This document shows positions 13,136-63,700 of a stretch of DNA of 64,000 nt, piece by piece; position 1 is the stretch's first letter; each line of letters starts with the position of its first letter. The notes under the pieces are model-generated. The model searched no databases. It was not told the origin of the DNA and saw only the letters and a list, made by a program, of their open reading frames with translations. The stretch lies in the NCBI RefSeq assembly GCF_000739085.1, contig NZ_CP009110.1, positions 4,712,001-4,776,000 of the forward strand, written 5' to 3'. This DNA is from Amycolatopsis methanolica 239 (GTDB lineage: Bacteria; Actinomycetota; Actinomycetes; Mycobacteriales; Pseudonocardiaceae). Made by a program: the position numbers and the translations under genes.

Positions 13136-13145
13136 TGCGGTTCTC

Positions 13146-17150: not shown

Positions 17151-17168
17151 ACCATCACCTCTCCAACT

Positions 17169-17242: not shown

Positions 17243-17245
17243 ACT

Positions 17246-18334: not shown

Positions 18335-18907
18335 CCTCGCGGGGACGCGGGGTGCCGGGGCGCCGGATGAGGAGCGCCGAGTGGGCATGTCGCGGGACGA
18401 GGCGGAGCCAGGCCACCAAGCGAGCCGCAGGCGGGGCCGCCAAGCAAGGGTGGCACGGGGCGAGACGAGCCGAGGCCGGACAGGGCCGCATGCAGGGCTG
18501 GGCCATTGGGCAAGACGACGCCGGACCGCCGGGCGAAGGGGTACCGGGCGCCCGGCAGGGCCAAACCCGGATGAGACCAGGCCGGGCCACCGCGAGGGCG
18601 GCGAACCGGGCCGGGCCGCCCGGGCGAAACCGGCTCGGGCCGACGGCGAGGCGGGCCGGGGTGCCGCGCAGCGCGGTAGGTAGGGCCAGCGCGCGGGGCG
18701 AAGCGGCCATGGGCCAAGCCGGGGCCGGGCCGCCGAGCGGGGCGGGGCCGCACCCGGCGTATCGCGCCCCGGGCCGCGTCCGCGCGGCACCGCGCGGACG
18801 CGGCAACCAGCTGCCATCGCCCACCCCGCCCCCCGCACCACCCCACGGCAGCCGCCACGCCGGCCACCGCGCAGCCCCGCACCCCACCGGGCACGCAAGC
18901 CCACACC
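18335..18907. other. Gene-free, extremely GC-rich low-complexity stretch
   Basis: 573 bases between the M20 stop and the hyuB stop made largely of repeated GGGCCGG, GGCGGGGC and CGAGG words. Long open frames cross it on both strands but show only the Arg/Gly/Pro-rich composition expected of chance frames in such DNA. No ribosome site, domain or clear terminator could be supported. Confidence 0.6.
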
Positions 18908-39608: not shown

Positions 39609-39611
39609 AGG

Positions 39612-40499
39612 TCACCGCCCGGGGAACCGGCCGGCGCGGACGAGCTGTCCTGGCAGGCGGCGGCCGAGAACCGTCTCCAGCCACTCGGCCACGCGCATCA
39701 CGCAATCGATGTCCACCCCGACATCGATCCCCTCCTCCACGAGGAGGTTGAGCAGATCCTCGGTGGCGATGTTGCCGGTCGCGTTCGGCGCGAAGGGGCA
39801 TCCGCCGATCCCGCCGACGGAAGCGTCGAGCACCGCCACGTCGTTCTCCAGCGCGGCGAACGCGTTGACGTACCCGGTATTGCGGGTGTTGTGCAGATGC
39901 ACCCCGAGCGGGACACCGAGGTGGGCGCCGTCCCGCAGGAGCCTGCGGACCTGGTGCGGAACGCCGACACCGATGGTGTCGGCGAAAACGACCTCGTCCG
40001 CTCCGGCGGCCACCACCTGCTCCGCGAGTGACAGCACGCGTCCCGGGTCGGCCCGCCCCTCGAAGGGACACCCGAACGAGGTCGCGAGCGTCACGCTCAC
40101 CCGGCGGCCGTCCCGATGCGCGGCAGCGACGACACCACCGGCCTCCTCGAGCGACTGCTCGACCGTCCGCCCCTGGTTGCGCTGGTTGAAAGTCTCACTG
40201 ACGCAGAACGCGTAGTGGACCTCCTGGCACGGGGTACCGGCCAACCGCTCGTAACCTCGACGGTTGAGCACCAGCCCGGCGTACGTGACCCCCGCCGTCG
40301 GGTTGAGCGCGGTCAGCACTTCTTCGGCACCGGCCATCTGCGGCACCCGCTTGGGACTGACGAAGCTCACCGCTTCGATACGCTGGCAGCCGGCGCCCGC
40401 CAGGCGCTCGACGAGTTCGGCGCGCACGGCAGGCGCCAGCGTGCCGGGTTCGTTCTGCAGCCCGTCCCGAGGGCCGACCTCGCACAGGGTGACGTCCAT
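39612..40499 (-). CDS. HMG-CoA-lyase-like enzyme (hydroxymethylglutaryl-CoA lyase family)
   Basis: 295 residues of TIM-barrel lyase. EVGPRDGLQNE at the N-terminus, FVSPKRVPQMA, the metal block GVHLHNTRNTGY (HxH) and the catalytic-Cys loop GGIGGCPFAPNATGN match HMG-CoA lyases. It cleaves 3-hydroxy-3-substituted acyl-CoAs to acetyl-CoA or related products. Start ATG 40499 lies behind GGAAAGGAGG. With the operon's CoA-transferase it suggests that the pathway forms a branched 3-hydroxyacyl-CoA before cleavage (inference). Confidence 0.85.
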   Translation of the reverse strand: MDVTLCEVGPRDGLQNEPGTLAPAVRAELVERLAGAGCQRIEAVSFVSPKRVPQMAGAEEVLTALNPTAGVTYAGLVLNRRGYERLAGTPCQEVHYAFCVSETFNQRNQGRTVEQSLEEAGGVVAAAHRDGRRVSVTLATSFGCPFEGRADPGRVLSLAEQVVAAGADEVVFADTIGVGVPHQVRRLLRDGAHLGVPLGVHLHNTRNTGYVNAFAALENDVAVLDASVGGIGGCPFAPNATGNIATEDLLNLLVEEGIDVGVDIDCVMRVAEWLETVLGRRLPGQLVRAGRFPGR

Positions 40500-40574
40500 C
40501 CTGACCGGCCCCTCCTTTCCTTCAGTCAGGCCGATACGGTCGCGGACTGATGTCCGTAACCGCCCCGCACCGGC

Positions 40575-41705
40575 TCACTTGCGCAGGCCCGCCTGCCTCA
40601 GCAGGGGCATCACGTTGTCGTCGAAGTACTTCATCTCTTCGTGGTAGTCCAGGAAGCCGAGGATGGCGCCATCCATGCCGACGTCGGAGAGGGTCTGCAG
40701 CTCGTCGACCACTTGCTCGGGAGTGCCGATGATCGGGTAACCACCCCAGCCGAGGATGAAGCGCTCCTGGTACACGCGAATCTGTTCGGAGAACGACGCG
40801 CTTTGCATACCGAGCACGGCCATCAGGTTCTTCGCGCCTTCGTAGTCACCTGCCTCGAGGATCGCCCGCTTGACCTGCTGTGCCTCCTCTTCCGTGTCAC
40901 GGCAGATGACGAACGCGTACGTCATGACGCCGAGATCACGGTGGTATTCGCCGCGGGCCCGGTCCCGGACCGCCTTGGCGTAGCCCCGTGCGTTCTCCAG
41001 CGTGTCGATCGTGGCGAAGTTGAAGTCGACGTGCTTGGCCGAAAAGTCGATACCCGCCGGCGAATTACCGGCGTTCAACAGCACCGGACGGGGATTTTGG
41101 ACCGGCTTCGGCAAGGACACCCCGCCCTTGACGTGGACGTACCGGCCATCGAAGTCGAACGGCGCGTCCTCGGTCCACAGCCGCTTCACGACCTCGATCC
41201 ACTCGGTGCCGAACTCATAGCGGTCGTCGTGCTCGCGCTGCGCGGCGCCGAACATCTCCATCTCCGGGGTGAACCACCCCATTACCAGGTTCAGTGCGAA
41301 CCGGCCCGCGGAGATGTGATCGATCGTCGCCGATGCCTTCGCCGCTACCAGCGGGTGCACGGTGGGCAGGTGCGAGGTCGAGGCAACCATGATGTTCTCG
41401 GTCTTCGCGGCCAGTCCCGCGGCCCAGGTGTAGGTGTCGAAGTTCGTGCCGTTGAAATTCGTCGATCCACCGAACCCCTTCCACCTCGCAACCGGGACCA
41501 GGATCTCCATGCCGATCTCGTCCGCCCGCTGCGCGACCTTGAGGGTGTGTTCCCAGGTCGCTTCATAGCTCGTCTCGGCCGTGGTCATGGTCAAGCCCTC
41601 GCTGCAGTTGGTGCCGAACAGCCCGAGCTTGAGCTTTTGGTCGTTGTACAGCGGAACGTGCTTGCGGCGGTAGTCCGCGAGTTCCGAATCTGTGTTCTGC
41701 GTCAT
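40575..41705 (-). CDS. LLM-class flavin-dependent monooxygenase (RutA-like)
   Basis: 376 residues of the bacterial luciferase-like fold: KLGLFGTNCSEGL, ARWKGFGGSTNFNG, AAKASATIDHISAGRFALN, VMGWFTPEMEMFG and GWGGYPIIGTPEQVVDEL. Such enzymes use FMNH2 or an N5-oxide/peroxide to attack amides, sulfonates or ring bonds; the ARWKGFGG...F block resembles pyrimidine monooxygenase RutA. The reductase in the same operon would supply FMNH2. Substrate unknown. Confidence 0.85.
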   Translation of the reverse strand: MTQNTDSELADYRRKHVPLYNDQKLKLGLFGTNCSEGLTMTTAETSYEATWEHTLKVAQRADEIGMEILVPVARWKGFGGSTNFNGTNFDTYTWAAGLAAKTENIMVASTSHLPTVHPLVAAKASATIDHISAGRFALNLVMGWFTPEMEMFGAAQREHDDRYEFGTEWIEVVKRLWTEDAPFDFDGRYVHVKGGVSLPKPVQNPRPVLLNAGNSPAGIDFSAKHVDFNFATIDTLENARGYAKAVRDRARGEYHRDLGVMTYAFVICRDTEEEAQQVKRAILEAGDYEGAKNLMAVLGMQSASFSEQIRVYQERFILGWGGYPIIGTPEQVVDELQTLSDVGMDGAILGFLDYHEEMKYFDDNVMPLLRQAGLRK

Positions 41706-41729
41706 CGACGTTTCCTTTCGGGGATCGGG

Positions 41730-42167
41730 TCAGTCCGCGAGGCCGGCAGCCGACAGCGCACCGCGTGCCACGGCCATGTCGTCGGTGTAATGCCCACCAC
41801 TGGCGCCGATTCCGCCGATGATCTCGCCGTCGACGACGACGGGATAGCCACCACCGAACGTCACCAGTCGGGCCGTGTGCGGGATGCCGATCTTCAACGG
41901 CTCGTCGTCCTTGATGAACTCGTGCCACTGGTCGGTGGGAATACCGAATGCGACTGCCGTGTAAGCCTTGTCCTGGGAGATCTGCACCGACAGCAGCGGT
42001 GCGCCGTCCATGCGCAGGAAGGCTTTCATGGTCCCGTCACGGTCGCACACCGTGATCACCATCGGCTTGCCGTTCTCGGTCGCGACCCGGGCGGCGTGAC
42101 TGACGAGCTCCTGCGCGAACTCCGCCGTGATGGTCGAGACACTTGCCGCTTTTTGCATTGCACCCAT
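41730..42167 (-). CDS. HbpS/GlcG-like small protein (DUF336 family)
   Basis: 145 residues matching the HbpS/GlcG fold: AVATENGKPMVITVCDRDG-type N-terminal sheet, AYTAVAFGIPTDQW and the C-terminal GEIIGGIGASGGHYTDDMAVA. ATG 42167 has AAGGAAAG upstream. Members bind haem or small acids and often accompany aromatic and glycolate degradation operons without a defined catalytic role. Confidence 0.8.
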   Translation of the reverse strand: MGAMQKAASVSTITAEFAQELVSHAARVATENGKPMVITVCDRDGTMKAFLRMDGAPLLSVQISQDKAYTAVAFGIPTDQWHEFIKDDEPLKIGIPHTARLVTFGGGYPVVVDGEIIGGIGASGGHYTDDMAVARGALSAAGLAD

Positions 42168-42193
42168 TTCGCTTTCCTTGATTGTGTGAGTCG

Positions 42194-42955
42194 TCACCGA
42201 ACCGACCAGCCGCCGTCGACCGGGATCGCGGCGCCCGTGATGAATGTGGAGTCGTCGCTGGCGAGATACAGACCGAGTGAAACAACTTCCTCCGCGCGAC
42301 CGAGCCGCCCGACGAGGTGACCTTCTTCGAACCCCTGCCAGATCTCCTCCTTCGCCTCGAGCCCGCTGACGAAATTGCGGGGCATCTGGGTGTCCACAAC
42401 ACCGGGGCAAATGGCGTTGACCCGGATCCCGTAGGGGGCGAGATCCACCGCGGCAGCCTTGGAGAACATCGCGAGCCCCCCTTTGGCCGCTCCATACGCG
42501 GCCATGTTCGCGAACGCCACCAGCCCGCCGACCGAGGAAACGTTGATGATCGATCCCCCGTGCTCTTTCATCAGCGGCGCGATCTGTTTGGTGATCAGGA
42601 AAACACTCTTGAGGTCGATGTCATGGACGCGGTCCCACTCTTCCTCGGTCGTCTCCAGCAGCGGCTTGCCGAGGATGATGCCGTGGTTGTTGTAGAGCAC
42701 GTCCACCTGATCGAACCGGCGGCGCACTTCCGTGACGAACTTTTCACACCCGGCCGTGGTCGCCAGATCAGCCGCCACAAAGGAGAAGTCGTAACCCTTG
42801 TCCCGCAGCTCCTTCGAAAATTCGCTGCCGACCGCCTCGTCGAGGTCGGTGCCAAGAACCCGGGCGCCTTCCTCACTGAACAGACGACAGGCCGCCTGTC
42901 CTTGTCCGCCCGCGGCACCGGTGATGACAACAGTCTTGTTGTCGAGCTTGCCCAT
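42194..42955 (-). CDS. Short-chain dehydrogenase/reductase
   Basis: 253 residues. The cofactor motif is GAAGGQG at about 12-18, NNHG replaces NNAG, active-site Ser lies in INVSSVGG, and YGAAKGG carries Tyr-Lys. The C-terminus ITGAAIPVDGGWS is standard. D53-D55 (GTDLD) in the second beta strand suggests NAD rather than NADP. ATG 42955 is behind AGAAGG. Probably oxidises a hydroxyl intermediate in this operon's pathway. Confidence 0.85.
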   Translation of the reverse strand: MGKLDNKTVVITGAAGGQGQAACRLFSEEGARVLGTDLDEAVGSEFSKELRDKGYDFSFVAADLATTAGCEKFVTEVRRRFDQVDVLYNNHGIILGKPLLETTEEEWDRVHDIDLKSVFLITKQIAPLMKEHGGSIINVSSVGGLVAFANMAAYGAAKGGLAMFSKAAAVDLAPYGIRVNAICPGVVDTQMPRNFVSGLEAKEEIWQGFEEGHLVGRLGRAEEVVSLGLYLASDDSTFITGAAIPVDGGWSVR

Positions 42956-42971
42956 TTGACCTTCTCTTTCG

Positions 42972-44174
42972 TCAGATGATTCCCCGTGAGGCCCAACGTT
43001 CACGCTGCGCCTCGCCCACGCCGAGCAGCCCGCCGTAGACCTCGTCGTTGTGCTGACCGAGTTCCGGCCCCAGCGAACGAACGGCGCCTGGCGTTCCCGA
43101 CAGTCGCGGAGCGACGTTCTGCATCGGGAACTCGCCGAGCTTGTCGTGCACCAACCGCACGATCGCCTGCCGGGCCTGGAAATGCGGGTCTTCGAGCATG
43201 TCGGCAGCCGTGTAGATCAGTCCGGCCGGCACCCCGGCCTCGTGCAGCCTGGCCAGCAGGTCCTCCGCCTTGAGCGTGCGGGTCCACCCCGACACCAGCC
43301 GGTCGAGCTCCTGCTGACGCTGCCCACGCGCGAGGTGGGTGCGGTAATCCTCGTCCTCCCGCAGATCCTCGCGGCCCATCACGCCGCACAACCGGTGGAA
43401 AACCGTGTCCTTGTTCGCCGCGATCAGCACCTCGCCGCCGTCCTGCGTCGGGTACACGTTGCTGGGTGCGACGCCAGGAAGCACCGACCCGGTGCGCTCA
43501 CGCCGCGAACCGGCGAGTTCCCACTCCGGTATCAAGGACTCCATGAGCGCCAGCACGGCTTCGTATATCGCCGAATCGACGACCTGTCCGTGTCCGGTGC
43601 GTTCCCGTGCCAACAAGGCCATCACGGCGCCGAGGGCCGCGAAGGTGCCGGCGAGAGAATCCCCCAGGGAGATCCCGGTACGGCTCGGCGCCCGGTCAGG
43701 TTCACCGGTGACGTGGCGGACCCCACCCATCGCCTCGCCGATGGACCCGAACCCCGCGCGCCGTGAATACGGGCCAGTCTGGCCATAGCCCGTCACGCGC
43801 ACCAGGACCAGTCCTGGGTTTATTGTGGATAGTTCATCGTAGCCGAGTCCCCAGTTTTCCAACGTTCCCGGCCGGAAGTTCTCCACCAGAACATCCGCCT
43901 GAGCCACCAGCCGGCGCATGATTGCCTGGCCGTCCGGTTCCCGGAGGTTGCAGGTGACGGACTTCTTGTTCCTGGCGATGATGGGCCAGGACAAGGAAAC
44001 ACCTTGCGGAAGCTGACTTCCCCACTTCCGCATCGGATCGCCACCCCGCGGATCCTCCACCTTGATGACCTCAGCTCCGAAGTCTCCTAACAATTGCGAG
44101 CAAAAAGGTCCCGCGATCAGAGAACCGCTTTCGACCACCCGGATCCCGGACAACGGTCCACCACTCCCTGTCAT
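42972..44174 (-). CDS. Class III CoA-transferase (CaiB/BaiF family)
   Basis: 400 residues. SGIRVVESGSLIAGPF, GDFGAEVIKVEDPRGGD, NKKSVTCNLREPDG and LVENFRPGTLENWGL are classical; the catalytic Asp is D172 (RTGISLGDSLAG). It moves CoA to a carboxylic acid. It is the first gene of the seven-gene operon and diverges from the AraC regulator across 240 bases, where I find no clear operator. Confidence 0.88.
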   Translation of the reverse strand: MTGSGGPLSGIRVVESGSLIAGPFCSQLLGDFGAEVIKVEDPRGGDPMRKWGSQLPQGVSLSWPIIARNKKSVTCNLREPDGQAIMRRLVAQADVLVENFRPGTLENWGLGYDELSTINPGLVLVRVTGYGQTGPYSRRAGFGSIGEAMGGVRHVTGEPDRAPSRTGISLGDSLAGTFAALGAVMALLARERTGHGQVVDSAIYEAVLALMESLIPEWELAGSRRERTGSVLPGVAPSNVYPTQDGGEVLIAANKDTVFHRLCGVMGREDLREDEDYRTHLARGQRQQELDRLVSGWTRTLKAEDLLARLHEAGVPAGLIYTAADMLEDPHFQARQAIVRLVHDKLGEFPMQNVAPRLSGTPGAVRSLGPELGQHNDEVYGGLLGVGEAQRERWASRGII

Positions 44175-44414
44175 GGACAGGAGTATCCGGTGCCGAAGAA
44201 CCGCGAGGCTATCCGCGGAGCGAACGACCCGGTGCCCGCGAACGCAAACCCTGGTGGATCCGGACTCGGCGTCCGCGACGCGCAAGTTGATTATCCGCAA
44301 TACGCAACGTCAAGCCACAGCACCACCGGATCGAGGCGAACAGAGGTCGGCATGCAGAGCACGGTGGTAGCCTCGGCGATCGGTTACCGGAACGGGGACG
44401 ACGGAGTCCGCTGC

Positions 44415-45386
44415 ATGACGACAGAAGAGACGACAACGGCGGTACCGCCGCTTCGCGAGGCTCGCGACCTGGCCGGGGCGCGCCACCACATCACCTCGGT
44501 GTACATACCGCATGAGCTCACCTCGCACGACAGCCGGCGGCTCAGTTTCAAGCTGTCCTACCTCGAGTCCCGGCGGCTCACGCTCGGACACCTCCGCTAC
44601 GGCGCCGACGTCGAGCTCCACTGCCCGCCGATGATGTCCTGCTACCACGTCAATCTCACGTTGACGGGAAGGACGCAGGTCAGCCAGGGAGGGGTTTCGG
44701 TGGCGACCGAGGGCGCCGCCGGCGGCGTAGCCTGCAATTTCAAGGACCCCTACGTCGTGCGGTGGAGTCCCGACGCGGTGCAGTACGCGATCAAGGTTCC
44801 CCGAGCCAGCCTGGAGGGCCAGCTCGCCTCCCTGATCGGTCGGCCGGTGGAAACCCCGATCCGCTTCAACCTCGGCTTCGACCTCGGCTCCCAGCGTGGG
44901 CAGAGCCTCCTCGCCGCCGTGCGGCACCTGCAGGTCGAACTGACACGCCCGGACGGGACGGCGGGAATCCCGCTTGTGCGCGCCCAACTGGAGTCGTATG
45001 TCCTGAGCCAGATGCTGCTGGTCATCCCGCACGACTACCAGCATCTTCTCCTCGCCCGGGGCAAAACGGCGAGCCGCAGACACGTCCGCATCGCGATGGA
45101 GTTCGTCCAGGAGCATTCCGCCGACCCGATCACCGCAGCCGATCTCGCCCGCGAAGCCTGTGTCAGCGTCCGAGCACTCCAGATGGGCTTCCGCGAGGAG
45201 TTCGGCACCTCTCCGACGGGCTACATCCGCGGCGTACGCCTCGACCGGGTACGCGAGGAGCTCTTGGCTCGCCCCCAGGGTGTCTCCATCACCGAGATCG
45301 CCCACCGTTGGGGGTTTCACCACCTCGGCCGGTTCGCGGAACACTACAAACGCAGGTTCGGCGAGCTGCCCTCGGAAACCGTGTGA
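44415..45386 (+). CDS. AraC-family transcriptional activator
   Basis: 323 residues from ATG 44415 (GGAG 8 bases upstream; an upstream ATG at 44352 is possible). The N-terminal half is the AraC-binding-like domain (HCPPMMSCYHVNLTLTG). The C-terminal 100 residues carry two helix-turn-helices: ADLAREACVSVRALQMGFRE and ISITEIAHRWGFHHLGRFAE-type sequence ending HYKRRFGELPSE. Such proteins activate aromatic and alkyl degradation operons; the divergent CoA-transferase operon is its probable target. Confidence 0.85.
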   Translation: MTTEETTTAVPPLREARDLAGARHHITSVYIPHELTSHDSRRLSFKLSYLESRRLTLGHLRYGADVELHCPPMMSCYHVNLTLTGRTQVSQGGVSVATEGAAGGVACNFKDPYVVRWSPDAVQYAIKVPRASLEGQLASLIGRPVETPIRFNLGFDLGSQRGQSLLAAVRHLQVELTRPDGTAGIPLVRAQLESYVLSQMLLVIPHDYQHLLLARGKTASRRHVRIAMEFVQEHSADPITAADLAREACVSVRALQMGFREEFGTSPTGYIRGVRLDRVREELLARPQGVSITEIAHRWGFHHLGRFAEHYKRRFGELPSETV

Positions 45387-54878: not shown

Positions 54879-55706
54879 CTACGACGAACCGGGGGTGCTT
54901 CCGAGGCGTTCGCGTTCGAGCGCGAGCACGTCCGACGGCGACTTCGCCGCGATGACCTCCGCGGGCGCACCCAGCTGGGCCGAGATGGACGCACTGGTAC
55001 GCGACATCGCGGCGAGGACCTCGGGCAGACGTTCCGGCGCGAGGCGGCCCCGAGGTGCGGAGACGTGGACCGCGGCGCCGACCGTGCCCGTCGCGTCGAA
55101 GACGGGCGTCGACAGGCCGATGATGCCTTCGACGCTCTCGCCGTCGCTGACGCTGTAGGCACGGGTGCGGATCGCGGCGAACTCCTGCCGCAGCACCTCC
55201 CGGTCGACGTGAGTGAACGGGGTGAATCGTTCAAGATCCGCGGAGCCGAGCACACGCTCTTCGAGGTCAGGGTTGTACGCGGTGATCAGCTTGCCGACGC
55301 TCGACCCGTGCAAGGGCCGGGCCCCGCCCAGCTTCATGACGACGGAGAGGGTCTGCCCGGCTTCATAACGGTCGGCGTAGGTGACGATGTTCCCGCTGCG
55401 AAGGGCGAGATAGGTGTTCTCGTTCAGCTCCTCGCAGAGATCGGTCAGGTAGGGGCGACTGACCTGGCGAAGGTCCACGGCATCGACGATCGAGAGCGCG
55501 AGGACCAGGGACCGAGGCCCCAGCAGGTAGGTGCGCTGGTCGGCCAGCCGCACAGCGCCGAGCTGGACCAGTGCGTGCATGAGGTCGTGGGCGCTGCTCA
55601 TCGGGACTTCGAGGTCCTCGCAGATGCGTTTGAGCGCGGCACCCTCCTGGTGGTGCCCCAGGTACTCCAGGATCTTGAACGCCCGGTCCAGGCGGGCTGG
55701 GTTCAT
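54879..55706 (-). CDS. IclR-family transcriptional regulator
   Basis: 275 residues from ATG 55706. N-terminal winged helix (LDRAFKILEYLGHHQEGAAL, VPMSSAHDLMHALVQLG) and C-terminal IclR effector domain (ENTYLALRSGNIVTYADRYE, GSSVGKLITAY, IGLSTPVFDATGTVGAAVHV). It diverges from the MatC-like carrier/CoA-transferase operon, and inverted ACTTCG-N6-CGAAGT sites lie between them. It is the likely regulator of that pathway, responding to its substrate or a CoA ester. Confidence 0.88.
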   Translation of the reverse strand: MNPARLDRAFKILEYLGHHQEGAALKRICEDLEVPMSSAHDLMHALVQLGAVRLADQRTYLLGPRSLVLALSIVDAVDLRQVSRPYLTDLCEELNENTYLALRSGNIVTYADRYEAGQTLSVVMKLGGARPLHGSSVGKLITAYNPDLEERVLGSADLERFTPFTHVDREVLRQEFAAIRTRAYSVSDGESVEGIIGLSTPVFDATGTVGAAVHVSAPRGRLAPERLPEVLAAMSRTSASISAQLGAPAEVIAAKSPSDVLALERERLGSTPGSS

Positions 55707-55758
55707 CGCGTCTCGCAGCCTCTCGTGTGTGCCTGCCGACGATCTTAGCGACAGCACT

Positions 55759-55916: not shown

Positions 55917-57221
55917 ATGTCCCCCCACCTCGTCTCGATACTCGTGCTCGCGGTGATCTTCCTGATCGGCACGCTCCGGTCGATCAACCTCGGCGCGCTC
56001 GCGCTCGTCGCGACCTTCCTCGTCGGCACCTGGGTGTTCGGCGACAGCGCCAAGAACGTGCTCGGCGGCTTTCCGGCCGACATGTTCGTGATCCTGGTCG
56101 GTGTCACCTTCCTGTTCGCCATGGCCAAGAACAACGGCACGGTCGACTGGCTGGTGCAGTGGTCGGTCCGCGCCGTCCGTGGCAACGTCGCGGCCATTCC
56201 CTGGGTGATGTTCGCGCTCAGCGGCGCACTGGTGGCGCTCGGCGCGCTCAGTCCCGCCGCCGTCGCGATCATCACACCGATCTCCCTGGCGCTGGCCGTG
56301 CGCTACGGCATCAGTCCCCTGCTGATGGGCCTGATGGTCGTGCACGGATCCGCCGCGGGGAACTTCTCCCCGCTCGGTGTCCTCGGCGTGATCACCAACG
56401 GGATCGTCGACCGGAGCGGGATCCCCGCCAGCCCGGCCGTTCTCTTCCTCAGCAACGCGATCTTCAACCTGGTCCTGGCGGTCGTGGTGTTCTTCGTGTT
56501 TGGCGGCCTCCGCCTCCTCCGGGAAGCGCGTCGCGAGGCCAGGCCGACTGTCGATCCCGGCACCGGGGGCACCGATGGCGGCGGGGTTGCCGTCCGGACG
56601 AAGATCGCGACCTCGTTGATCACCCTGAACCGCGATCGTATCCTCACTGTGCTCGGTCTCCTCGTCCTCGTTGTCGGAGCGCTTGGCTTCGGCGTCGACA
56701 TCGGCTTGCTGGCTCTGTCGGTCGCCGTGGTGCTGTCCCTGTTCGCGCCGGGCAGCGCCAAGGAGGCGCTCAACCAGGTCAGCTGGGGGGTTGTGCTCCT
56801 CATCTGCGGGATCATCACCTACGTTGGCCTGCTCGAGGACCACGGAACAGTCTCCTACCTCGGCGAGGGCATCGCGTCGGTGTCCGTGCCGGCCCTCGCG
56901 GCGCTCGTCATCTGCTTCATCGGCGCGATCGTGTCGGCCTTCGCGTCCACGACCGGCATCCTCGGCGCGCTCATCCCGCTCGCTGTGCCGCTGCTCGTTT
57001 CGGGACAGGTCGGCGCCATCGGGCTCGTCGCCGCGCTCTCGATCTCCGCGTCGGTCGTGGACACCAGCCCGTTCTCGACCAACGGCGCACTCGTCGTCGC
57101 CAACTCACCCGCCCAGGCGCAGCAGACGGTGTACCGCCGGCTCATGGTGTGGGGGTTCGGCCTGGTCCTCGTCGCGCCGGTCGTGACCTGGGCACTGCTC
57201 GTTCTGACCGGATGGTGGTGA
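55917..57221 (+). CDS. MatC-like dicarboxylate carrier (SLC13/ion transporter superfamily)
   Basis: 434 residues with about 11-12 hydrophobic helices. The N-terminal block (INLGALALVATFLVGTWVFG, FPADMFVILVGVTFLFAMAK) is that of the MatC_N family of malonate/dicarboxylate carriers; VHGSAAGNFSPLGVLG and DTSPFSTNGALVVAN are the two re-entrant-loop-like motifs. ATG 55917 behind AAGGAG. As first gene of the Bbs-like operon it would import a dicarboxylate such as a substituted succinate. That fits the CoA-transferase substrates, but is inference. Confidence 0.8.
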   Translation: MSPHLVSILVLAVIFLIGTLRSINLGALALVATFLVGTWVFGDSAKNVLGGFPADMFVILVGVTFLFAMAKNNGTVDWLVQWSVRAVRGNVAAIPWVMFALSGALVALGALSPAAVAIITPISLALAVRYGISPLLMGLMVVHGSAAGNFSPLGVLGVITNGIVDRSGIPASPAVLFLSNAIFNLVLAVVVFFVFGGLRLLREARREARPTVDPGTGGTDGGGVAVRTKIATSLITLNRDRILTVLGLLVLVVGALGFGVDIGLLALSVAVVLSLFAPGSAKEALNQVSWGVVLLICGIITYVGLLEDHGTVSYLGEGIASVSVPALAALVICFIGAIVSAFASTTGILGALIPLAVPLLVSGQVGAIGLVAALSISASVVDTSPFSTNGALVVANSPAQAQQTVYRRLMVWGFGLVLVAPVVTWALLVLTGWW

Positions 57222-57223
57222 TC

Positions 57224-58336
57224 ATGCACGAAGAAGACGTCGAGCGCGGTCCGCTCGACGGGGTCCGCGTCGTGGACCTCACGACGTCGCTGGGTGCTTA
57301 CACGGGGCGGCTCCTCAGCGACCTGGGTGCCGATGTCGTTCGCGTGGACCTCGACGGTGATCGCCTCCCGCGCCCCGGCGTCTTCACCGAAGCCGGCAAG
57401 GCGCGCGTGACCGCTGGCCGCGCTGGCCTGGAAGACCTCCTCGGGACCGCGCAGATCCTGCTGACGAGTGAGGGACCGGCCGCGTTGCGAGCACGTGACC
57501 TGCACCCCGAGGACGTTGTGCGGCGGCATCTCGGGCTGGTGCACGTGTCGGTCAGCCCGTACGGCCTGACCGGCCCGTACGCCGACCGTCCGGCCAGTGA
57601 TCTGACACTGCTGGCCGCCGGGGGCCTTCTTGCCCTGGCCGGTGATCCGGACCGGGAACCCGTCCGGCCGTGGGGCGAGCAGTCCACGGTCATCGCCGGT
57701 GCCCACGCCGCCGTCGCGGCGCTGCTCGCGCTGCTCACGTTGGAAGCCACCGGTCGCGGACAGGTTGTCGACCTCTCCGCTCAGGAAGCCGTGGCGCACT
57801 CGCTGGAGAACGCCGTGCAGTGCCTGGACCTCGAAGGCGTTCTGCGCAACCGCGCCGGTTCAGGGCCCCTGGAGGCGGGAACCGGCCTGTTTCGTTGTGC
57901 CGACGGATGGATCTACCTCGTCGGTGGTCTCGGCGGCCGCCCCCTCGCGTGGTCCGCGATCACGGAGTGGTTGCTGGACAACGGGATCACCGAAGCGGAG
58001 GCACTGCGCGACGAGCGCTGGGGGGAGCGTTCCTGGCGGCGCAGCCCCGACGCCGCCACCGAGTTCCGGTCAATGTTCGAACGCTTCGCAGTCCACCGGA
58101 CGAAGGACGAGCTCTATGAGGACGGTCAGCGGCGCGGCATCAGCATCGCGCCGGTGGCCACGCCCGCGGACCTGCTGGCCAACCCACAGCTGACCGAGCG
58201 GGGCTTCTTCCGTGAGGTGACCGTGGACGGCCGCGACCTGGTCTTCCCCGGTCCGCCGTACCGGTTCGCCGGTTCGCGCGTCGGCCCACGGTCCACTCCG
58301 GACCGTTCCGGTACAGACGAAGGGATCACCGCATGA
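57224..58336 (+). CDS. Class III CoA-transferase subunit lacking the catalytic Asp (BbsE/F-like)
   Basis: 370 residues. GPLDGVRVVDLTTSLGAYTG, LLSDLGADVVRVDLDGDR and TGRGQVVDLSAQEAVAHSLE show the CaiB/BaiF fold, but it is shortened (the usual NKRSVTLDL block is absent) and the catalytic Asp position reads T155 (EQSTVIAGAH instead of the family's D-x-x-x-G). It probably pairs with the next gene, which keeps an Asp, as a heteromeric enzyme like BbsEF. Start ATG 57224; a GTG at 57218 would overlap the carrier stop. Confidence 0.8.
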   Translation: MHEEDVERGPLDGVRVVDLTTSLGAYTGRLLSDLGADVVRVDLDGDRLPRPGVFTEAGKARVTAGRAGLEDLLGTAQILLTSEGPAALRARDLHPEDVVRRHLGLVHVSVSPYGLTGPYADRPASDLTLLAAGGLLALAGDPDREPVRPWGEQSTVIAGAHAAVAALLALLTLEATGRGQVVDLSAQEAVAHSLENAVQCLDLEGVLRNRAGSGPLEAGTGLFRCADGWIYLVGGLGGRPLAWSAITEWLLDNGITEAEALRDERWGERSWRRSPDAATEFRSMFERFAVHRTKDELYEDGQRRGISIAPVATPADLLANPQLTERGFFREVTVDGRDLVFPGPPYRFAGSRVGPRSTPDRSGTDEGITA

Positions 58337-59553
58337 CGACGGGACTACCGCTGGAAGGTGTCCGGGTCGCCGATTTCACCTGGGTCGGCGCCGGCCCGTT
58401 CCTCACCAAACCCCTGGCCGACCACGGCGCGGATGTCATCAAGATCGAGTCCCGCACCCGCACCGACCCGATCCGCTCCATGGCTCCGTTCCGGGATGGC
58501 CGGCCGGGCGTGGACCGCAGCGGGTACTTCGCGAACCGCAACTCCAGCAAGCGCTCCATCTGTCTCGACCTCAAGCACCCGGCCGGGCGGCGGATCGCTC
58601 TGGACCTTATCGTGCGTAGCGACGTCGTCGCGAACAACTTCACGCCGGGCACCATGAAGCGGCTGGGGCTGGACTACGAAACCGTGCGCGCGATCCGGCC
58701 CGACATCATCTACCTCGAGATGCCCATGCAGGGCACCGAGGGACCGTACCGCGACTTCCGCGGTTACGGGCTCACGATCGCCGCAGCCGGGGGGTTGCTC
58801 GGACTCTCCGGCTATCGCGACCGCCCACCGGTCGGCACCGGAACCAACTACCCGGACCACGTACCGAACCCGTTGCACGCCGCGGTCGCAGTGCTGGCGG
58901 CGCTGCGCAACAGGCGGCGCACCGGACGCGGTGAGTACATCGAGCTGGCACAGCTGGAATCCACGGTCAATGCGATCGGGCCCGCGATCGTGGCGGGAGC
59001 AGCCGGTGCACACCCCGAACGGAGCGGCAACGACGACCCGGTCGCGGCGCCCCACGGCGTGTACCCGTGCAGCGGCGACGACACCTGGTGTGCCATCGGC
59101 GTGTTCGACGACGCCCAGTGGCACGCACTGGTCGCCGTCCTGAATGCGCCACCGTGGGCCGCCCTCGGAGACCTCGCCCAGGCCCTGGACCGTCGTGAGC
59201 GGCGCCGCGAACTCGACGAGCTGATCGCCGCCGAGACGAAGGCGTGGGATGCTGACGACCTCGCCACGGCCCTCACGAGCGCGGGAGTGCCCGCGGCGCC
59301 CGTGCGCGACGCGGACGGGGTGCTCAACCATGACCCACAGCTCGCCGCGCGCGAGCACTGGGTGTGGCTCGACCACCCTGTGATGGGGCCGAGCGTCTAC
59401 GACGGCATCCCCTACCGGATGTCGCGCACCTCGGGCCGGTTGCGCGCCCCGGCGCCGCTGCTCGGTGCGGACAGCCACGATGTGTGCACCCGACTGCTCG
59501 GCATGGACGACAAGACCTATTCCGAACTGGCCCGGGAAGGAGTCGTGGGCTGA
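58333..59553 (+). CDS. Class III CoA-transferase, catalytic subunit (BbsE/F-like)
   Basis: 406 residues. PLEGVRVADFTWVGAGPFLT, DHGADVIKIESRTRTD, SSKRSICLDLKHPAGRR and NNFTPGTMKRLGLDY are intact, and D175 (NYPDHVPNPLHAA) fits the CoA-accepting Asp. ATG overlaps the preceding stop (ATGA), so the two subunits are made together. By analogy with succinyl-CoA:benzylsuccinate CoA-transferase it may activate an imported substituted succinate with succinyl-CoA as donor. Confidence 0.82.
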   Translation: MTTGLPLEGVRVADFTWVGAGPFLTKPLADHGADVIKIESRTRTDPIRSMAPFRDGRPGVDRSGYFANRNSSKRSICLDLKHPAGRRIALDLIVRSDVVANNFTPGTMKRLGLDYETVRAIRPDIIYLEMPMQGTEGPYRDFRGYGLTIAAAGGLLGLSGYRDRPPVGTGTNYPDHVPNPLHAAVAVLAALRNRRRTGRGEYIELAQLESTVNAIGPAIVAGAAGAHPERSGNDDPVAAPHGVYPCSGDDTWCAIGVFDDAQWHALVAVLNAPPWAALGDLAQALDRRERRRELDELIAAETKAWDADDLATALTSAGVPAAPVRDADGVLNHDPQLAAREHWVWLDHPVMGPSVYDGIPYRMSRTSGRLRAPAPLLGADSHDVCTRLLGMDDKTYSELAREGVVG

Positions 59554-59555
59554 CC

Positions 59556-60359
59556 ATGGCCATCGAAACCGAACGCCGGGAACGCATCCTGATCATCCGG
59601 ATGGACCGGCCCGAGGCGCTGAACGCCCTGGATCCCGGCTCGATGCGTGATCTCAACGACCGGCTGCGGGAGTTCCGTGACGACCCCGAGCTGCTCGTGG
59701 CGATCCTGACCGGGACCGGCGAACGCGCGTTCTGCACGGGCGCGGACCTGAAGAAGACGCTTCCCCCGGACACGTCCTTCGCCGAGGCCTATTTCGACGC
59801 CTACGAGCGCAGTCTCGACGAAGGACTCTACGTCCGGGCCATGACCATCAGCGACCTGAAGATCAACAAGCCGCTCATCGCCGCGGTCAACGGCCACGCC
59901 CTCGGTGGCGGCACCGAGATCGCACTCGACTGCGACTTGCGCATCGCCAGTGAGAACGCCACGTTCGGTCTGCCGGAACCGCGGTGGGCAAGCGTGCCCG
60001 CGGTGGGTGGTGTCTCCAAACTGCTACGGGCCGTGCCCCGTGCGGTGGCGATGAAGATGATCCTGACCGGCGACCGCATCGATGCGGCCGAAGCGCATCG
60101 GGTCGGCCTGGTCAGCGAGGTCGTGCCGGCCGGCGAACTGCTCGAGCGCGCGTTGCAGGTCGCGAACCGGATCGCGGCCAACGGCCCGCTCGCGGTCAAG
60201 AGCATCAAGACCCTGGCTCTGCGCACCGACGATCTGCCGTTGAGCAGGTCGGTCGAGCTCGAGCAGCTGCTGTGGGGCCTGCTGCGCGACACCGATGACC
60301 GCGTCGAGGGCCGCACCGCGTTCGCCGAACGGCGCACCCCCGAATACCGAGGCCGCTGA
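59556..60359 (+). CDS. Enoyl-CoA hydratase/isomerase (BbsH-like position)
   Basis: 267 residues of the crotonase fold: RPEALNALD, GERAFCTGADLKKTL (oxyanion), AAVNGHALGGGTEIALDCD (oxyanion Gly) and the Glu-containing GLPEPRWASVPAVGG. It would hydrate an unsaturated acyl-CoA in the pathway. Two bases after the CoA-transferase stop. In the Bbs route BbsH hydrates phenylitaconyl-CoA. The acyl-CoA dehydrogenase that should precede it (BbsG) is not in the window. Confidence 0.85.
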   Translation: MAIETERRERILIIRMDRPEALNALDPGSMRDLNDRLREFRDDPELLVAILTGTGERAFCTGADLKKTLPPDTSFAEAYFDAYERSLDEGLYVRAMTISDLKINKPLIAAVNGHALGGGTEIALDCDLRIASENATFGLPEPRWASVPAVGGVSKLLRAVPRAVAMKMILTGDRIDAAEAHRVGLVSEVVPAGELLERALQVANRIAANGPLAVKSIKTLALRTDDLPLSRSVELEQLLWGLLRDTDDRVEGRTAFAERRTPEYRGR

Positions 60360-60371
60360 GGAGAAACGGGA

Positions 60372-60785
60372 ATGACAACGACAGAACACACCGGCCCCCG
60401 CATGGTCGGCGGCCAATGGATCCGCGACAACGATGACCGCACGGCTCTGAAGATCACCCGGTGCGCCCGCTGCGACAGCACCTGGTTCCCGCCACGCGAC
60501 GTGTGTTCGTCCTGCGCCTCCACCGAGGTCGAGGACACCCTCAGCGCCACCCAAGGTGTTGCCTACGCCTCTACGGTGGTGCGCATCGGCCCGCCGGCCT
60601 TCCAGCCCCCGTACGTGCTGGCCTATGTCGACGTGAGCGGCGTACGGGTCCTGGCGCATGTGGACGCGGACGAGGCACTCGCACCCGGGACACCCGTAGC
60701 GCTGAGGGTCGGCCCGATCGGAACCGACTCCGACGGCGAATTCTCGTCTTACCTCGTTGCCGAAACCCAGGGAGGTGCCCGATGA
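60372..60785 (+). CDS. Zn-ribbon/OB-fold protein (DUF35, BbsA-like)
   Basis: 137 residues. A rubredoxin-like zinc ribbon is formed by C31, C34, C45 and C48 (CARC...CSSC), followed by an OB-fold domain (GVAYASTVVRIGPP, YVLAYVDVSGVRVLAHVD). Such proteins are partners of thiolase-like enzymes; BbsA is the zinc subunit of benzoylsuccinyl-CoA thiolase BbsAB, and ChsH2 pairs with Ltp2. The stop overlaps the thiolase start (ATGA), which supports a complex. Confidence 0.85.
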   Translation: MTTTEHTGPRMVGGQWIRDNDDRTALKITRCARCDSTWFPPRDVCSSCASTEVEDTLSATQGVAYASTVVRIGPPAFQPPYVLAYVDVSGVRVLAHVDADEALAPGTPVALRVGPIGTDSDGEFSSYLVAETQGGAR

Positions 60786-61924
60786 GGCCGGTTTTCGTGG
60801 CAGGGGCCGCCGTTCACCCGTTCGGCAAGTACCGCGAGCTCAGCGCGGCGGAACTCGGCTACCGGGCGGTGCGCGATCTGGTCGCGCAGACGGGTGTGCC
60901 ACCCGAGCGGATCGACATCGGCTTCGGCGGCTCGGTCTACGGCGGTTCGCTGCTGGCGCAGCGCGTCCTGCAGCGCGTCGGGGTGTCCGGTCAACCGGTG
61001 TACACCGTGGAGAACGCCTGCGCCAGCGGTGCTTCCGCCGTGCATCTCGGCTGGCAGGCGGTGGCTGCCGGGACCGCCGACGCCGCCATCGTGTTCGGCG
61101 CGGAGAACCTGTCGGCCTTCGGCGGCGGCACCTTGCCGCTGACCACCGCCGACATCGAGATCGACCAGGGCATGGTCATGCCGGCGGCTTATGCCATGCG
61201 TGCCCAGCGGTATATCCACGACTTCGGCGCCACCGCCGATGACCTGACCCGGGTGTCGATGAAGAACCGGCGCAACGGGGCGGCGAACCCGCGGGCCCAC
61301 TTTCAGAAGGAGGTCACGGCCGAGGACGTGGCCCAGTCCCGCCCGGTCGCCGATCCGCTGCACCTGCTGCACTGCTGCCCGAACAGCGACGGCGCCGCGG
61401 CCGCACTGCTGTGCTCGAAGGAGGTTGCCCAGGAGTTGAGCACCCCGGCGGTTCGAATGCGAGCCAGCGCGGTGCGGTCCGGGCGGTTCCACACGTCCTA
61501 CCGCGACATGACATGGCCCGACATCACCGAGCGCACTGCGCGGGCCGCCTATGACATGGCCGGTCTCGGTCCGGCCGATCTCGACCTGGTCGAGCTGCAT
61601 GACGCGTTCAGCATCGCGGAGCTGCTGCACTCCGAGGCACTTGGCCTCGCCGACCGCGGACAGGCGGCGAAGGCCGTGGCTGCCGGGGAGTTCGACCGCA
61701 ACGGCCGGGTGGCGGTAAGCCCCAGCGGTGGCCTGCTGTCCCGCGGACACCCCGTCGGGGCGTCCGGTACCACCCAGATCTGTGAGGCGTACTGGCAGCT
61801 GACCGGGCAGGCCGGCGAGCTCCAGGTGCCGGGCGCCGAGGTCGCGCTGACCCACGTCACCGGCGGCGGCATCTTCGGCGTAGATAACGGCGCCTGCGCG
61901 GTGCACATCCTGACCACGGCCTGA
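60782..61924 (+). CDS. Thiolase (SCP2/BbsB-like)
   Basis: 380 residues. Nucleophile C80 (ENACASGASAVHLG), VELHDAFSIAELL and SRGHPVGASGTTQICE are the thiolase motifs; the usual C-terminal Cys block is replaced by HVTGGGIFGVDNGA, as in SCP2-type proteins. Together with the DUF35 protein it would form a heteromeric thiolase that cleaves a beta-ketoacyl-CoA, in Bbs the benzoylsuccinyl-CoA to benzoyl-CoA and succinyl-CoA. An aldolase (Ltp2-like) is the alternative, but the retained Cys favours thiolysis. Confidence 0.85.
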   Translation: MRPVFVAGAAVHPFGKYRELSAAELGYRAVRDLVAQTGVPPERIDIGFGGSVYGGSLLAQRVLQRVGVSGQPVYTVENACASGASAVHLGWQAVAAGTADAAIVFGAENLSAFGGGTLPLTTADIEIDQGMVMPAAYAMRAQRYIHDFGATADDLTRVSMKNRRNGAANPRAHFQKEVTAEDVAQSRPVADPLHLLHCCPNSDGAAAALLCSKEVAQELSTPAVRMRASAVRSGRFHTSYRDMTWPDITERTARAAYDMAGLGPADLDLVELHDAFSIAELLHSEALGLADRGQAAKAVAAGEFDRNGRVAVSPSGGLLSRGHPVGASGTTQICEAYWQLTGQAGELQVPGAEVALTHVTGGGIFGVDNGACAVHILTTA

Positions 61925-61938
61925 CCGGGAGGACCACG

Positions 61939-62559
61939 ATGATCGACACACCGAGGAACCGGCCGGTCGCCCTGGTCGCCGGGCCGGACACGGCGGTGCG
62001 AACGGCGATCACGGCCCGGCTGGAGTCGTCCGGGTGGGAGATCAGCGCCGGCCTGGCGGACAAGCCGGTCACCGGGCTGGTCCATGTACCCGATCTGTTC
62101 ACCTCGGACCGGCCAGTGCGACAGAGAGCCGTCGTCGACGAGTTCTTCGAGGCGGTCGAGCAGGTCCGTCCCCGGTTGCGAGCTCGTGTGGACGGTGGCG
62201 CGAGGATCGTCGCCGTGACTTGCCGCGACGGCCTGGGCTGGCCAGACCGGCCGCACATCGCCGCGGCGTCCGGTGCGCTCGTCTCCGCCACGCGCAGCCT
62301 CGCCCTCCAGCTGGGGCAGGCCGGCATCACCGTCAACGCGGTGTCGGCCCTGCCACCGGAAGGCAGTCCGCTCCGTGAGGGGGGCGACCCGGTGGGCACG
62401 CACCTGCGGGAACCCGCGGCTCTCACACCGGAACCGGTCACGATGGAGGACATCGCCCGCACGGTCGGATTCTTCCTCGACGACCGGAGCGGATACATCA
62501 CCGGCCAGGTCCTGCACTGCTGCGGTGGCGCGAGCCTGCTCTCCAGTCTGTCCGTCTGA
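61939..62559 (+). CDS. Catalytically dead short-chain dehydrogenase (BbsC-like pseudoenzyme)
   Basis: 206 residues, shorter than the usual 250. The SDR core is recognisable (ASGALVSATRSLALQLGQAG, ITVNAVSALPPEG, GYITGQVLHCCGG), but the N-terminal cofactor motif GxxxGxG is replaced by VAGPDTAVRTA, and the Ser-Tyr-Lys triad positions read T94, I107 and S111. The partner gene next to it has all three. BbsC of toluene degraders is likewise an inactive subunit of the BbsCD heterotetramer. ATG 61939 follows GGGAGG. I expect a structural role. Confidence 0.8.
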   Translation: MIDTPRNRPVALVAGPDTAVRTAITARLESSGWEISAGLADKPVTGLVHVPDLFTSDRPVRQRAVVDEFFEAVEQVRPRLRARVDGGARIVAVTCRDGLGWPDRPHIAAASGALVSATRSLALQLGQAGITVNAVSALPPEGSPLREGGDPVGTHLREPAALTPEPVTMEDIARTVGFFLDDRSGYITGQVLHCCGGASLLSSLSV

Positions 62560-62587
62560 AGTGGACCCGATGAAGGAGGACACCACC

Positions 62588-63343
62588 ATGAGCCTTGACG
62601 GTCAGGTCGCTGTTGTCACCGGCGCCGCGAGCGGAATCGGGTTCGCGATCGCCGAAGAGTTCGTCTCAGCCGGCGCCAAGGTCGTCATCGCCGACATCGC
62701 GAAGGACCGTGCCGAAGAGGCCGCCACCTGTATCTCCCACGCTGGTGGCACCGCGGTGGGGATCCAGGTCGACGTCGCCGACCGGGCGAAGGTGGAAGCC
62801 CTCTTCCACGAGACCGAGGCGACGCTGGGACCGGTGGACATCCTGGTGAACAACGCCGGCATCAGCATCGACCGGGGCGTGCGCCGGATCTCCGACGAGG
62901 AGTGGCAGCGCACGATCGCCATCAACCAGACTGGCGTGTTCCTCTGCTCGCAGGCCGCCGCGATCAGCATGGTCGCCCGGCGCACCGGGCGAATCATCAA
63001 CATCGCTTCGCGCGCCTGGCTCGGTTGGTTCGGGCAGCTCGCCTACTCCTCGTCCAAAGGAGCGGTGGTCTCGGCGACCCGGTCGCTGGCGATCGAGCTG
63101 GCGAAGTACGGCATCACCGTGAACTGCCTGGCCCCGGGGCTGATCGACACCCCCCTGCTGCAGGCGGAGCCGCCCGAGGTGATGGAACGCCTGCTCCAGG
63201 CTCAGCCCATGGGAACGCTGGGCGATCCGCGGGACGTCGCCTGGGCCGCCCGGTTCTTCGCGGAACCCATGTGTCGGTCGATCACTGGTCAGGTGCTCTA
63301 CGTCTGCGGTGGCAAGAGCTTGTACGCGCAGCCCGCCCGCTAG
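62588..63343 (+). CDS. Active short-chain dehydrogenase (BbsD-like)
   Basis: 251 residues. Cofactor motif TGAASGIG (11-18), NNAG (88-91), catalytic S141 (INIASRAW), Y153 and K157 (LAYSSSKGAV). D36 at the end of the second strand suggests NAD. ATG 62588 has AAGGAGG 8 bases upstream. It shares VSATRSLA with the pseudoenzyme before it, showing common ancestry. In the proposed pathway it oxidises the 3-hydroxyacyl-CoA before thiolysis. Confidence 0.85.
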   Translation: MSLDGQVAVVTGAASGIGFAIAEEFVSAGAKVVIADIAKDRAEEAATCISHAGGTAVGIQVDVADRAKVEALFHETEATLGPVDILVNNAGISIDRGVRRISDEEWQRTIAINQTGVFLCSQAAAISMVARRTGRIINIASRAWLGWFGQLAYSSSKGAVVSATRSLAIELAKYGITVNCLAPGLIDTPLLQAEPPEVMERLLQAQPMGTLGDPRDVAWAARFFAEPMCRSITGQVLYVCGGKSLYAQPAR

Positions 63344-63344: not shown

Positions 63345-63700
63345 TCTAAAACTGACAGAGGTTGTTGACAGTCTGGGCTCCTGATCTAGGAAGGGAGCTC
63401 ATGGCTGAGCGAGTGTGGAGTGAGAAGGACCTGGTCAGGCGCGCGAACCGGCGTCTGGCTGCTGTGCTTCGTCATGCTGAGGAGGTCAGCGGCAATGTGG
63501 CCGCGACGTGCCGCTACTACGGCATCAGCCGCAACATGGTCCAGAAGACACCGCAGACCGGCGGCTCATACCGGTCAACCCGATCCAGCCCCGGCGGCGG
63601 CACACCCGCAGATCGGTGCGCAGCGCGACGTCAACGGGCAGAGCCACCGTGGATCACCCCATCGACACCGGAGGGAACATGATCAACCCCCCAGGCCAAG
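63345..63700 (+). mobile_element. Remnant of an IS element (IS481/IS3-like transposase N-terminus)
   Basis: ATG 63401 with AAGGGAG starts a protein whose N-terminus holds a transposase helix-turn-helix (HAEEVSGNVAATCRYYGISR). After NMVQK the sequence becomes unrelated and no DDE domain follows. Upstream, CTGACAGAGGTTGTTGACAGT near 63351 may be part of an IS end (it contains TTGTTGACAGT). No right end is seen. It closes the Bbs-like operon on its downstream side. Confidence 0.55.

Follow-up and report, generated by a model that had tools for sequence, protein, structure and literature searches.

Enzymes of the Bbs pathway, the beta-oxidation of benzylsuccinate, are used as markers of anaerobic toluene degradation. 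According to one report (PMC10818641), they act in the order BbsEF, BbsG, BbsH, BbsCD and BbsAB, bbsABCD form one stretch in G. metallireducens (Gmet_1528-1531), and the bbs operons of strict anaerobes include electron-transfer flavoprotein (ETF) genes. Here we describe an operon of the actinomycete Amycolatopsis methanolica 239 that, judged by the make-up of its gene products, is very probably a Bbs-type module. It lies in a window of 64,000 bases (the whole stretch analysed, positions 4712001-4776000 of a single 7,237,391-base contig), whose open reading frames (ORFs), with their starts and stops, were taken directly from the sequence. In common with the Bbs system, the operon has a two-subunit CoA-transferase, a hydratase, a DUF35-thiolase pair and a pair of short-chain dehydrogenase/reductases (SDRs), one dead and one active, and the order DUF35-thiolase-dead SDR-active SDR corresponds to bbsABCD. 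The window holds the E/F, H, A, B, C and D types and no G, the operon is without ETF genes and the genome is without a PFL-like gene; a MatC-like carrier, an IclR-family regulator and a host BoxB, which is aerobic, also set the window apart. That the operon works like Bbs beta-oxidation is well supported. It probably forms a self-contained and mobile unit for the breakdown of a 2-substituted dicarboxylate, with a substituted succinate as the likeliest case. It is not the Bbs pathway in the strict sense, because BbsG and a glycyl-radical partner were looked for and not found. We regard it as a module of Bbs type that stands apart from the fumarate addition of anaerobes; no description of the cassette in actinomycetes was found in open-access titles and abstract openings, the subscription literature falling mostly outside the scope of that search.

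All eight genes lie on the + strand, between 55917 and 63343, and the successive gaps measure -10, -4, 2, 12, -4, 14 and 28 bases (Table 1). A Pfam family was assigned to all nine products, the regulator included, and the gene order with overlaps or short gaps given in the original prediction holds, each of the eight frames being open as proposed. The operon is more than a chance arrangement, because several further genera have the same set of genes. Enzyme types, pairing within the operon and catalytic residues are evident at the level of sequence.

Table 1. Features of the operon and its divergent regulator gene (positions in the window)
Feature	Position	Strand	Basis
IclR-family regulator, divergent from the operon	54879..55757	-	Pfam IclR_C and HTH_IclR
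MatC-like dicarboxylate carrier, probable importer	55917..57221	+	Pfam MatC_N (4e-59), CitMHS
CoA-transferase III subunit 1, chain-A type, D130	57212..58336	+	PDB, tree, alignment
CoA-transferase III subunit 2, chain-B type, without Asp at that position	58333..59553	+	PDB, tree
Enoyl-CoA hydratase, BbsH position	59556..60359	+	Pfam ECH_1
DUF35/zf-ChsH2 zinc-ribbon/OB subunit, BbsA position, C31 C34 C45 C48	60372..60785	+	Pfam, NCBIfam, PDB
Thiolase, BbsB type: C80, H273 in HDAF, H323 in GHPVGASG	60782..61924	+	PDB, motifs
Short inactive SDR pseudo-subunit (SDR1), BbsC type, tail CCGGASLLSSLSV	61939..62559	+	PDB, Foldseek, alignment
Active SDR (SDR2), BbsD type, tail TGQVLYVCGGKSL	62588..63343	+	PDB, motifs

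Both CoA-transferase subunits find their closest solved relative in the benzylsuccinate enzyme. Subunit 1 matches its chain A best (9fn0_A, 205.6 bits, next 94; 38% identity) and subunit 2 its chain B (9fn0_B, 343.7 bits, next 175; 46% identity). The BbsEF assignment of the original prediction was borne out by a tree of 50 rows, in which each subunit joins its own counterpart: subunit 1 and nine orthologues join 9fn0_A at 98/91, subunit 2 and nine orthologues join 9fn0_B at 100/99, and both group with the benzylsuccinate enzyme, away from the remaining family III rows. The divergent transferase pair of a second clade of loci (described below) joins each side at 99/99. The original prediction had placed the conserved Asp in the second transferase, and here the alignments reverse it. 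D130 of the first (ASDLTLL), which we take to be at the position of the catalytic Asp of family III, aligns with PGSDLTC in 9fn0_A and, in both 4ed9 and 10uh, with GYDF; at that position the second transferase reads GYGLTIAA, resembling GYGVNLNA of 9fn0_B. This asymmetry between the subunits is identical to that of the solved benzylsuccinate CoA-transferase, and the pair is classified as a predicted two-subunit, BbsEF-type family III enzyme.

The SDR pair consists of an active and a dead subunit. SDR2 keeps TGAASGIG, NNAG and YSSSK, and its best PDB match is BbsD (7pcs_B, 221 bits, next 200.9; 46% identity). SDR1 lacks the glycine-rich nucleotide-binding motif and, by eye, YxxxK across 12 aligned copies, and its PDB matches are BbsD (59.3 bits), BbsC (49.9) and a next entry at 44.3. 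In these same 12 copies the given letters of CGG..LL SS.SV at the C-terminus are invariant. The tail of the active subunit, TGQVLYVCGGKSL, has the BbsD counterpart TGQVLYVCGGRSL. A motif composed after the rows had been viewed, TGQ[VIL][LMI][YFHV][VC]CGG[RKAS][ST], occurs in 31 of 52 SDR rows, a count that is descriptive and no blind test: all 13 active subunits, 12 of the 13 dead ones (that of locus L033 being one letter off), BbsD, all four single SDRs of plasmid operons and one row from L030. L056 is a near miss, and the motif is absent from the other 19 rows, the FabG protein 6t6n being without it. In the SDR tree (52 rows, without BbsC) the 13 dead subunits, set off by a very long branch, form a clade at 100/100, and the 13 active ones form another at 98/98. 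An AlphaFold2 model of SDR1 from 11 rows has a mean pLDDT (predicted local distance difference test score) of 80.8, with tail residues 201-206 below 50. Structure prediction had been suggested for the paired subunits; for the dead SDR it placed BbsC first in Foldseek (7pcs_A, E 8.1e-9, 26% identity), at a TM-score (0.60) no better than that of FabI proteins, and the ranking lends mild support to a BbsC-type model. Together these features mark a putative BbsCD-type pair of dead and active subunits.

Among PDB entries, the thiolase is closest to BbsB (7pxp_C, 274.8 bits, next 209.8; 39.7% identity), and the steroid-type 6ok1_A scores 111.9. It combines Cys80, HDAF (273-276) and GHPVGASG, and BbsB likewise has HDAF and the Cys. 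The YDHF/YDCY motif that the steroid aldolases Ltp2 and Sal use, as given in PMC12329534, was looked for in the window thiolase and is absent, HDAF being found instead. A block [HQ]xTGGG occurs in 14 of 14 window-clade rows, in BbsB and in all five plasmid rows (L045-L049), and was seen by eye in none of the other 25 thiolase rows, some of which end before the block. The window thiolase belongs to an actinobacterial clade of 14 rows at 100/100 in a tree of 45 rows that still includes three identical pairs. The adjoining DUF35 protein has a four-Cys ribbon, and its PDB matches are 6esq_E (40.9 bits), ChsH2 6ok1_B (36.2) and BbsA 7pxp_A (35.1). We regard these two as a likely BbsAB-type pair of thiolase and Zn-finger DUF35 subunit. 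L037 and L028 each encode, in a separate gene, a second thiolase-like protein with YDGW and without a Cys at that site. In the hydratase, E121 and E141, presumably the positions of the crotonase catalytic Glu pair, are invariant in 13 of 13 aligned sequences, and the enzyme is a candidate BbsH.

Overall, five of the seven enzyme subunits have a Bbs enzyme as their nearest solved relative, namely the two CoA-transferases, the two SDRs and the thiolase. The PDB comparison covered six of the seven, all but the hydratase. Several results weigh against the Bbs assignment. No core enzyme reaches an equivalog cut-off among the NCBIfam matches listed: the thiolase scores 311 bits with a BbsB cut-off of 750, and the sole NCBIfam match of the DUF35 protein is BbsA at 52 bits, below a cut-off of 250, its PDB scores being slightly higher with two non-Bbs DUF35 proteins than with BbsA. 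The thiolase is 47-49% identical to those of proteobacterial single-SDR operons, above its identity to BbsB, and BbsB sits in the same wider group at a fork without resolution, not as sister to the window thiolase. BbsD falls outside both SDR clades, at a fork without resolution that it shares with FabG and the plasmid SDRs. Two general subfamily models accept the active SDR, one of them FabG-like (231.9 against a cut-off of 222) and the other glucose dehydrogenase-like (217.1 against 215). Lastly, an unlinked acyl-CoA dehydrogenase could perform the BbsG step, and in L037 of the second clade one is encoded about 3.5 kb away from the active SDR. The Bbs-like subunit set of the original prediction is upheld by the PDB matches, the CoA-transferase tree and the C-terminal signatures, and left unsettled in the places that BbsB and BbsD take in the trees.

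Our data are consistent with a model in which the MatC-like carrier would import the acid and CoA would be passed to it from succinyl-CoA by the two-subunit CoA-transferase, whose Asp lies on subunit 1. The hydratase would then add water across the alpha,beta double bond, and an NAD(P)-linked oxidation of the alcohol by the SDR pair would follow, the active subunit being catalytic and the dead subunit providing structure and a C-terminal tail. The DUF35-thiolase pair would cleave the 2-substituted 3-oxoacyl-CoA into an acyl-CoA and succinyl-CoA, the latter feeding the CoA-transferase step. The acid is rather more probably a substituted succinate than anything else. Because the operon has no acyl-CoA dehydrogenase, the acid would either arrive unsaturated or be desaturated by an enzyme coded elsewhere. 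Entry in unsaturated form, as a 2-alkylidene or 2-arylidene succinate, is a tentative proposal that falls somewhat short of even chances; carrier, transferase, hydratase, SDR pair and thiolase would then suffice, and the released succinyl-CoA would renew the donor. Alkylitaconic acids are known from many fungi, and 11 of 240 soil strains make hydroxyhexylitaconic acids, as stated in PMC7284703. Such acids are candidates and no match, the double bond being placed differently from that of benzylidenesuccinate. It is possible, though doubtful, that the cassette represents a mobile, oxygen-compatible substituted-succinate pathway independent of fumarate addition, in which alkylidene- or arylidene-succinates would come from fungi or plants, or would be made from saturated acids by a TcuA-like flavoprotein replacing BbsG.

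No BbsG-type acyl-CoA dehydrogenase was found in the operon by Pfam, and none of the 45 acyl-CoA dehydrogenase domain matches in the host genome (42 of them above cut-off) lies inside the window. A search with the L037 acyl-CoA dehydrogenase (E <= 1e-5) covered 25 stretches, made up of the window, the 14 kb downstream of it and 23 loci from relatives. The query matched only itself and a piece in L049 (annotated in PLSDB as acyl-CoA dehydrogenase), and none was detected around the cores of the 11 close (clade-1) relatives within the stretches searched. The original prediction had seen no glycyl-radical synthase, and this is supported: PFL-like enzymes gave no match anywhere in the host genome, a control being positive in 3 of 14 genomes.

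Genes that adjoin the core in relatives point to one possible substitute for BbsG. A 2-hydroxyacid dehydrogenase, an aldehyde dehydrogenase and an FAD protein, 69-83% identical, do so in L026, L033 and L044/L062, and the model nearest to the FAD protein is TcuA, that of tricarballylate dehydrogenase (336 bits, cut-off 369). Tricarballylate is 2-carboxymethylsuccinate, and a TcuA-like flavoprotein desaturating the free acid could replace BbsG. In the host genome, an aldehyde dehydrogenase gene is paired with one for a TcuA-like flavoprotein at 1857091-1860006, 2.9 Mb away, at 42-47% identity and with no evident link to the operon; genes near this pair look by eye like those of a GntR regulator, a transporter and an aminotransferase. 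Weaker aldehyde dehydrogenase matches (33-45%) in other loci and the window were left unused, the family being common. Two further ideas were rejected. A role of the 2-hydroxyacid dehydrogenase as a formate dehydrogenase, with itaconate yielding formyl-CoA, was dropped since the 338-400 aa proteins of L026, L033 and L044 fall below all equivalog cut-offs shown; the L035 protein does qualify as a formate dehydrogenase, with 690.7 bits against a cut-off of 329, yet is only 29% identical to that of Rhodococcus opacus. A lignan or pinoresinol substrate was likewise dismissed, the open-access papers searched including none that brought the elements of this idea together, and the R. opacus FAD protein being TcuA-like (FAD_binding_2) and not of the expected VAO type.

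The cassette is rare and patchy in its occurrence. In an order sample of 298 genomes, the thiolase was found at E <= 1e-70 in 14 and at 73% identity or more in 4, including the window's own. A peptide-pattern scan (two patterns) of an 84,980-species collection gave at least 13 loci, 11 of them at 73-86%, among which L038 is cut at a contig end and two come from Arthrobacter sp. ISL-28. Of the remaining two, L042 shares only 24% identity and the match of L043 spans 58 residues. Four genomes of a 396-genome phylum sample had a match at E <= 1e-85, only the window's own belonging to this clade and the others standing at 44-45%, and in the sample of the Arthrobacter family (Micrococcaceae) the one positive genome of 395 was the search centre itself. 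Two R. opacus plasmids carry the thiolase at 71%. Hosts comprise Arthrobacter, Kribbella, Prauserella, Streptomyces, Nocardia, Rhodococcus and metagenome-assembled genomes (MAGs) of Mycolicibacterium and an actinomycetotal lineage (Actinomycetota MAG). Although the cassette is so scattered, the thiolase is 71-86% identical among distant actinomycetes, and that of the window is closer to Kribbella (86%) than to same-family Prauserella (77%). Because patchy occurrence is combined with high identity across distant hosts, the cassette is probably mobile and laterally transferred.

A full core, defined as both transferases, hydratase, DUF35, thiolase and both SDRs, is present in the window and in L026, L031, L033, L034, L035, L039, L040, L041 and L044/L062. 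Transferase 1 stands apart in L026, L033 and L044, on the opposite strand to the run and beside the IclR gene. An IclR gene of 60-77% identity lies near the cassette in L026, L031, L033, L034, L035, L039, L040, L041 and L044, and the MatC-like carrier is kept at 70-74% in L031, L035, L039, L040 and L041 and at 47% in L044/L062. Arthrobacter sp. ISL-28 has two full cassettes on different contigs (L040 and L041), each with a carrier and an IclR gene. Beyond the IclR gene, a second hydratase-family gene occurs in L031 (675-1481), L040 (699-1505) and L041 (3064-3897), 27-29% identical to that of the operon. Arthrobacter sp. Soil736 (L032, 9825-12622) has a reduced cassette of the DUF35 end, thiolase and both SDRs, transferases and hydratase being undetected in the upstream DNA covered. 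Fragments of the thiolase (58 residues, 81%) and SDR2 in Streptomyces brasiliensis (L043, 8826-9190) are perhaps a decayed copy. The trees were built without repeat loci (L011-L017, L027 and similar), the cut L038 and hits that were short or had stop codons, and L032 was excluded from the CoA-transferase and SDR trees.

The second clade (L028, L036 and L037) combines a run from hydratase to SDR with an aldehyde dehydrogenase and the divergent transferase pair of Bbs type. A P450 is encoded in both L036 and L028, to which L036 (Streptomyces canus, 4909-18431) adds a Fer2 ferredoxin and a ferredoxin reductase, and in L037 acyl-CoA dehydrogenase and biotin carboxylase accompany the run. In the P450-bearing L036 and L028, an oxidative route may make the acid.

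Other described or sequenced systems resemble the operon in part. Plasmid operons of Azospirillum, Novosphingobium, Cupriavidus and Salipiger (L045, L046, L048 and L049) also combine DUF35, a TGGG-block thiolase, a CGGRS-tail SDR and a hydratase, but have one SDR instead of a pair and a different gene order. A single CoA-transferase is part of the run in L046 and L048 and none in L045 and L049, and those of L045, L046 and L048 sit outside the Bbs pair in the tree. Their four single SDRs keep the glycine motif together with an SLSSxSV-like tail, ending SLSSPSV, SLSSASV or SLASPSV, near the tail of the dead subunit, whereas the active subunit ends SLYAQPAR or similar. From these endings we infer that the SDR pair may have arisen by duplication, one copy retaining the active site and the other the tail. 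The anaerobic auxin (iaa) operon likewise oxidizes an aryl-substituted dicarboxylate as CoA esters, but has a benzylmalonyl-CoA dehydrogenase, IaaF, for which the window operon has no counterpart.

The preference for a substituted succinate handled in Bbs fashion has to be weighed against four other explanations. A true, or ring-substituted, benzylsuccinate pathway would use an unlinked acyl-CoA dehydrogenase as BbsG and send benzoyl-CoA to the aerobic box pathway. The nearest solved enzymes are indeed those of Bbs, the host genome has BoxB (750.7 bits, cut-off 499.1) as well as its 45 acyl-CoA dehydrogenase matches as possible BbsG sources, and in the order sample all 4 genomes that have the cassette also have boxB, compared with 47 of the 294 without it (E <= 1e-100). 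However, boxB is present in all five sampled members of the window's genus, two with the cassette and three without, and was not found in eight of nine named host genomes searched, the ninth being the Prauserella already in the order sample and a tenth record comprising a plasmid alone; with no PFL-like gene in the genome and no BbsG in the operon, this pathway is unlikely. A similarly small chance is given to another 2-substituted dicarboxylate, of malonate, glutarate or adipate type, degraded by the same beta-oxidation logic. Such a substrate would suit a carrier of the MatC dicarboxylate family, which we take to be linked to malonate, and the modest identity (38-46%) to solved Bbs chains together with the missed BbsA and BbsB equivalog cut-offs; it sits less well with the grouping of both CoA-transferase subunits with the benzylsuccinate enzyme, and with a succinyl-CoA cleavage product that would renew the CoA donor.

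Operation in the biosynthetic direction, with acyl-CoA and succinyl-CoA condensed into a 2-substituted succinate for export, is very improbable: the operon has no reductase for the last double bond, its IclR regulator and MatC-type carrier suggest catabolism, and annotated neighbours (penicillin amidase, polysaccharide deacetylase) are unlike a biosynthetic cluster, even though the Bbs reactions are reversible and were run backwards in E. coli, according to PMC10818641. The chance that the locus encodes a steroid side-chain retro-aldolase of Ltp2/ChsH2 or Sal type with unrelated FabG-like SDRs is close to negligible. Such DUF35-thiolase pairs do exist, Ltp2-ChsH2 and Sal-Shy share the DUF35 and thiolase fold, and the DUF35 protein matches ChsH2 6ok1_B; the idea was set aside on the catalytic residues, HDAF and Cys80 being as in BbsB and not the YDHF/YDCY by which those aldolases differ (PMC12329534), and both the lower score of 6ok1_A and the lack of the tail signature in FabG 6t6n speak against it. 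A grouping with Ltp2/ChsH2 and FabG was the pattern that the original prediction named as contradicting it; residues and tail signature oppose such a grouping, and the thiolase and SDR trees leave BbsB and BbsD unplaced.

Two further observations concern the surroundings of the operon. Just 3' of it, at 63362-63682, lies a short ORF with what looks by eye like a transposase start (MAERVWSEKDLVRRANRRLAAVLRHAEEV...) and no Pfam match, possibly a mobile-element remnant at the operon edge. A second catabolic-looking run occupies 38251-44153 on the - strand (DHBP synthase-like protein, flavin reductase, HMGL-like lyase, luciferase-like monooxygenase, SDR and CoA-transferase III), with an AraC-type regulator on the opposite strand (44094-45383, +).

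An almost complete set of Bbs-type genes that occurs in actinomycetes with neither a glycyl-radical partner nor BbsG could mislead surveys that rely on these genes as toluene markers. The dead SDR also becomes a testable case of subunit evolution, in that the tail of the plasmid single SDRs is kept by the dead subunit and lost from the active one. If a fumarate-independent pathway of the kind outlined above exists, the anaerobic Bbs pathway would represent a single branch within a broader family of modules for substituted succinates. The cassette suggests a general soil route for 2-substituted succinates, a class that includes the alkylitaconic acids.

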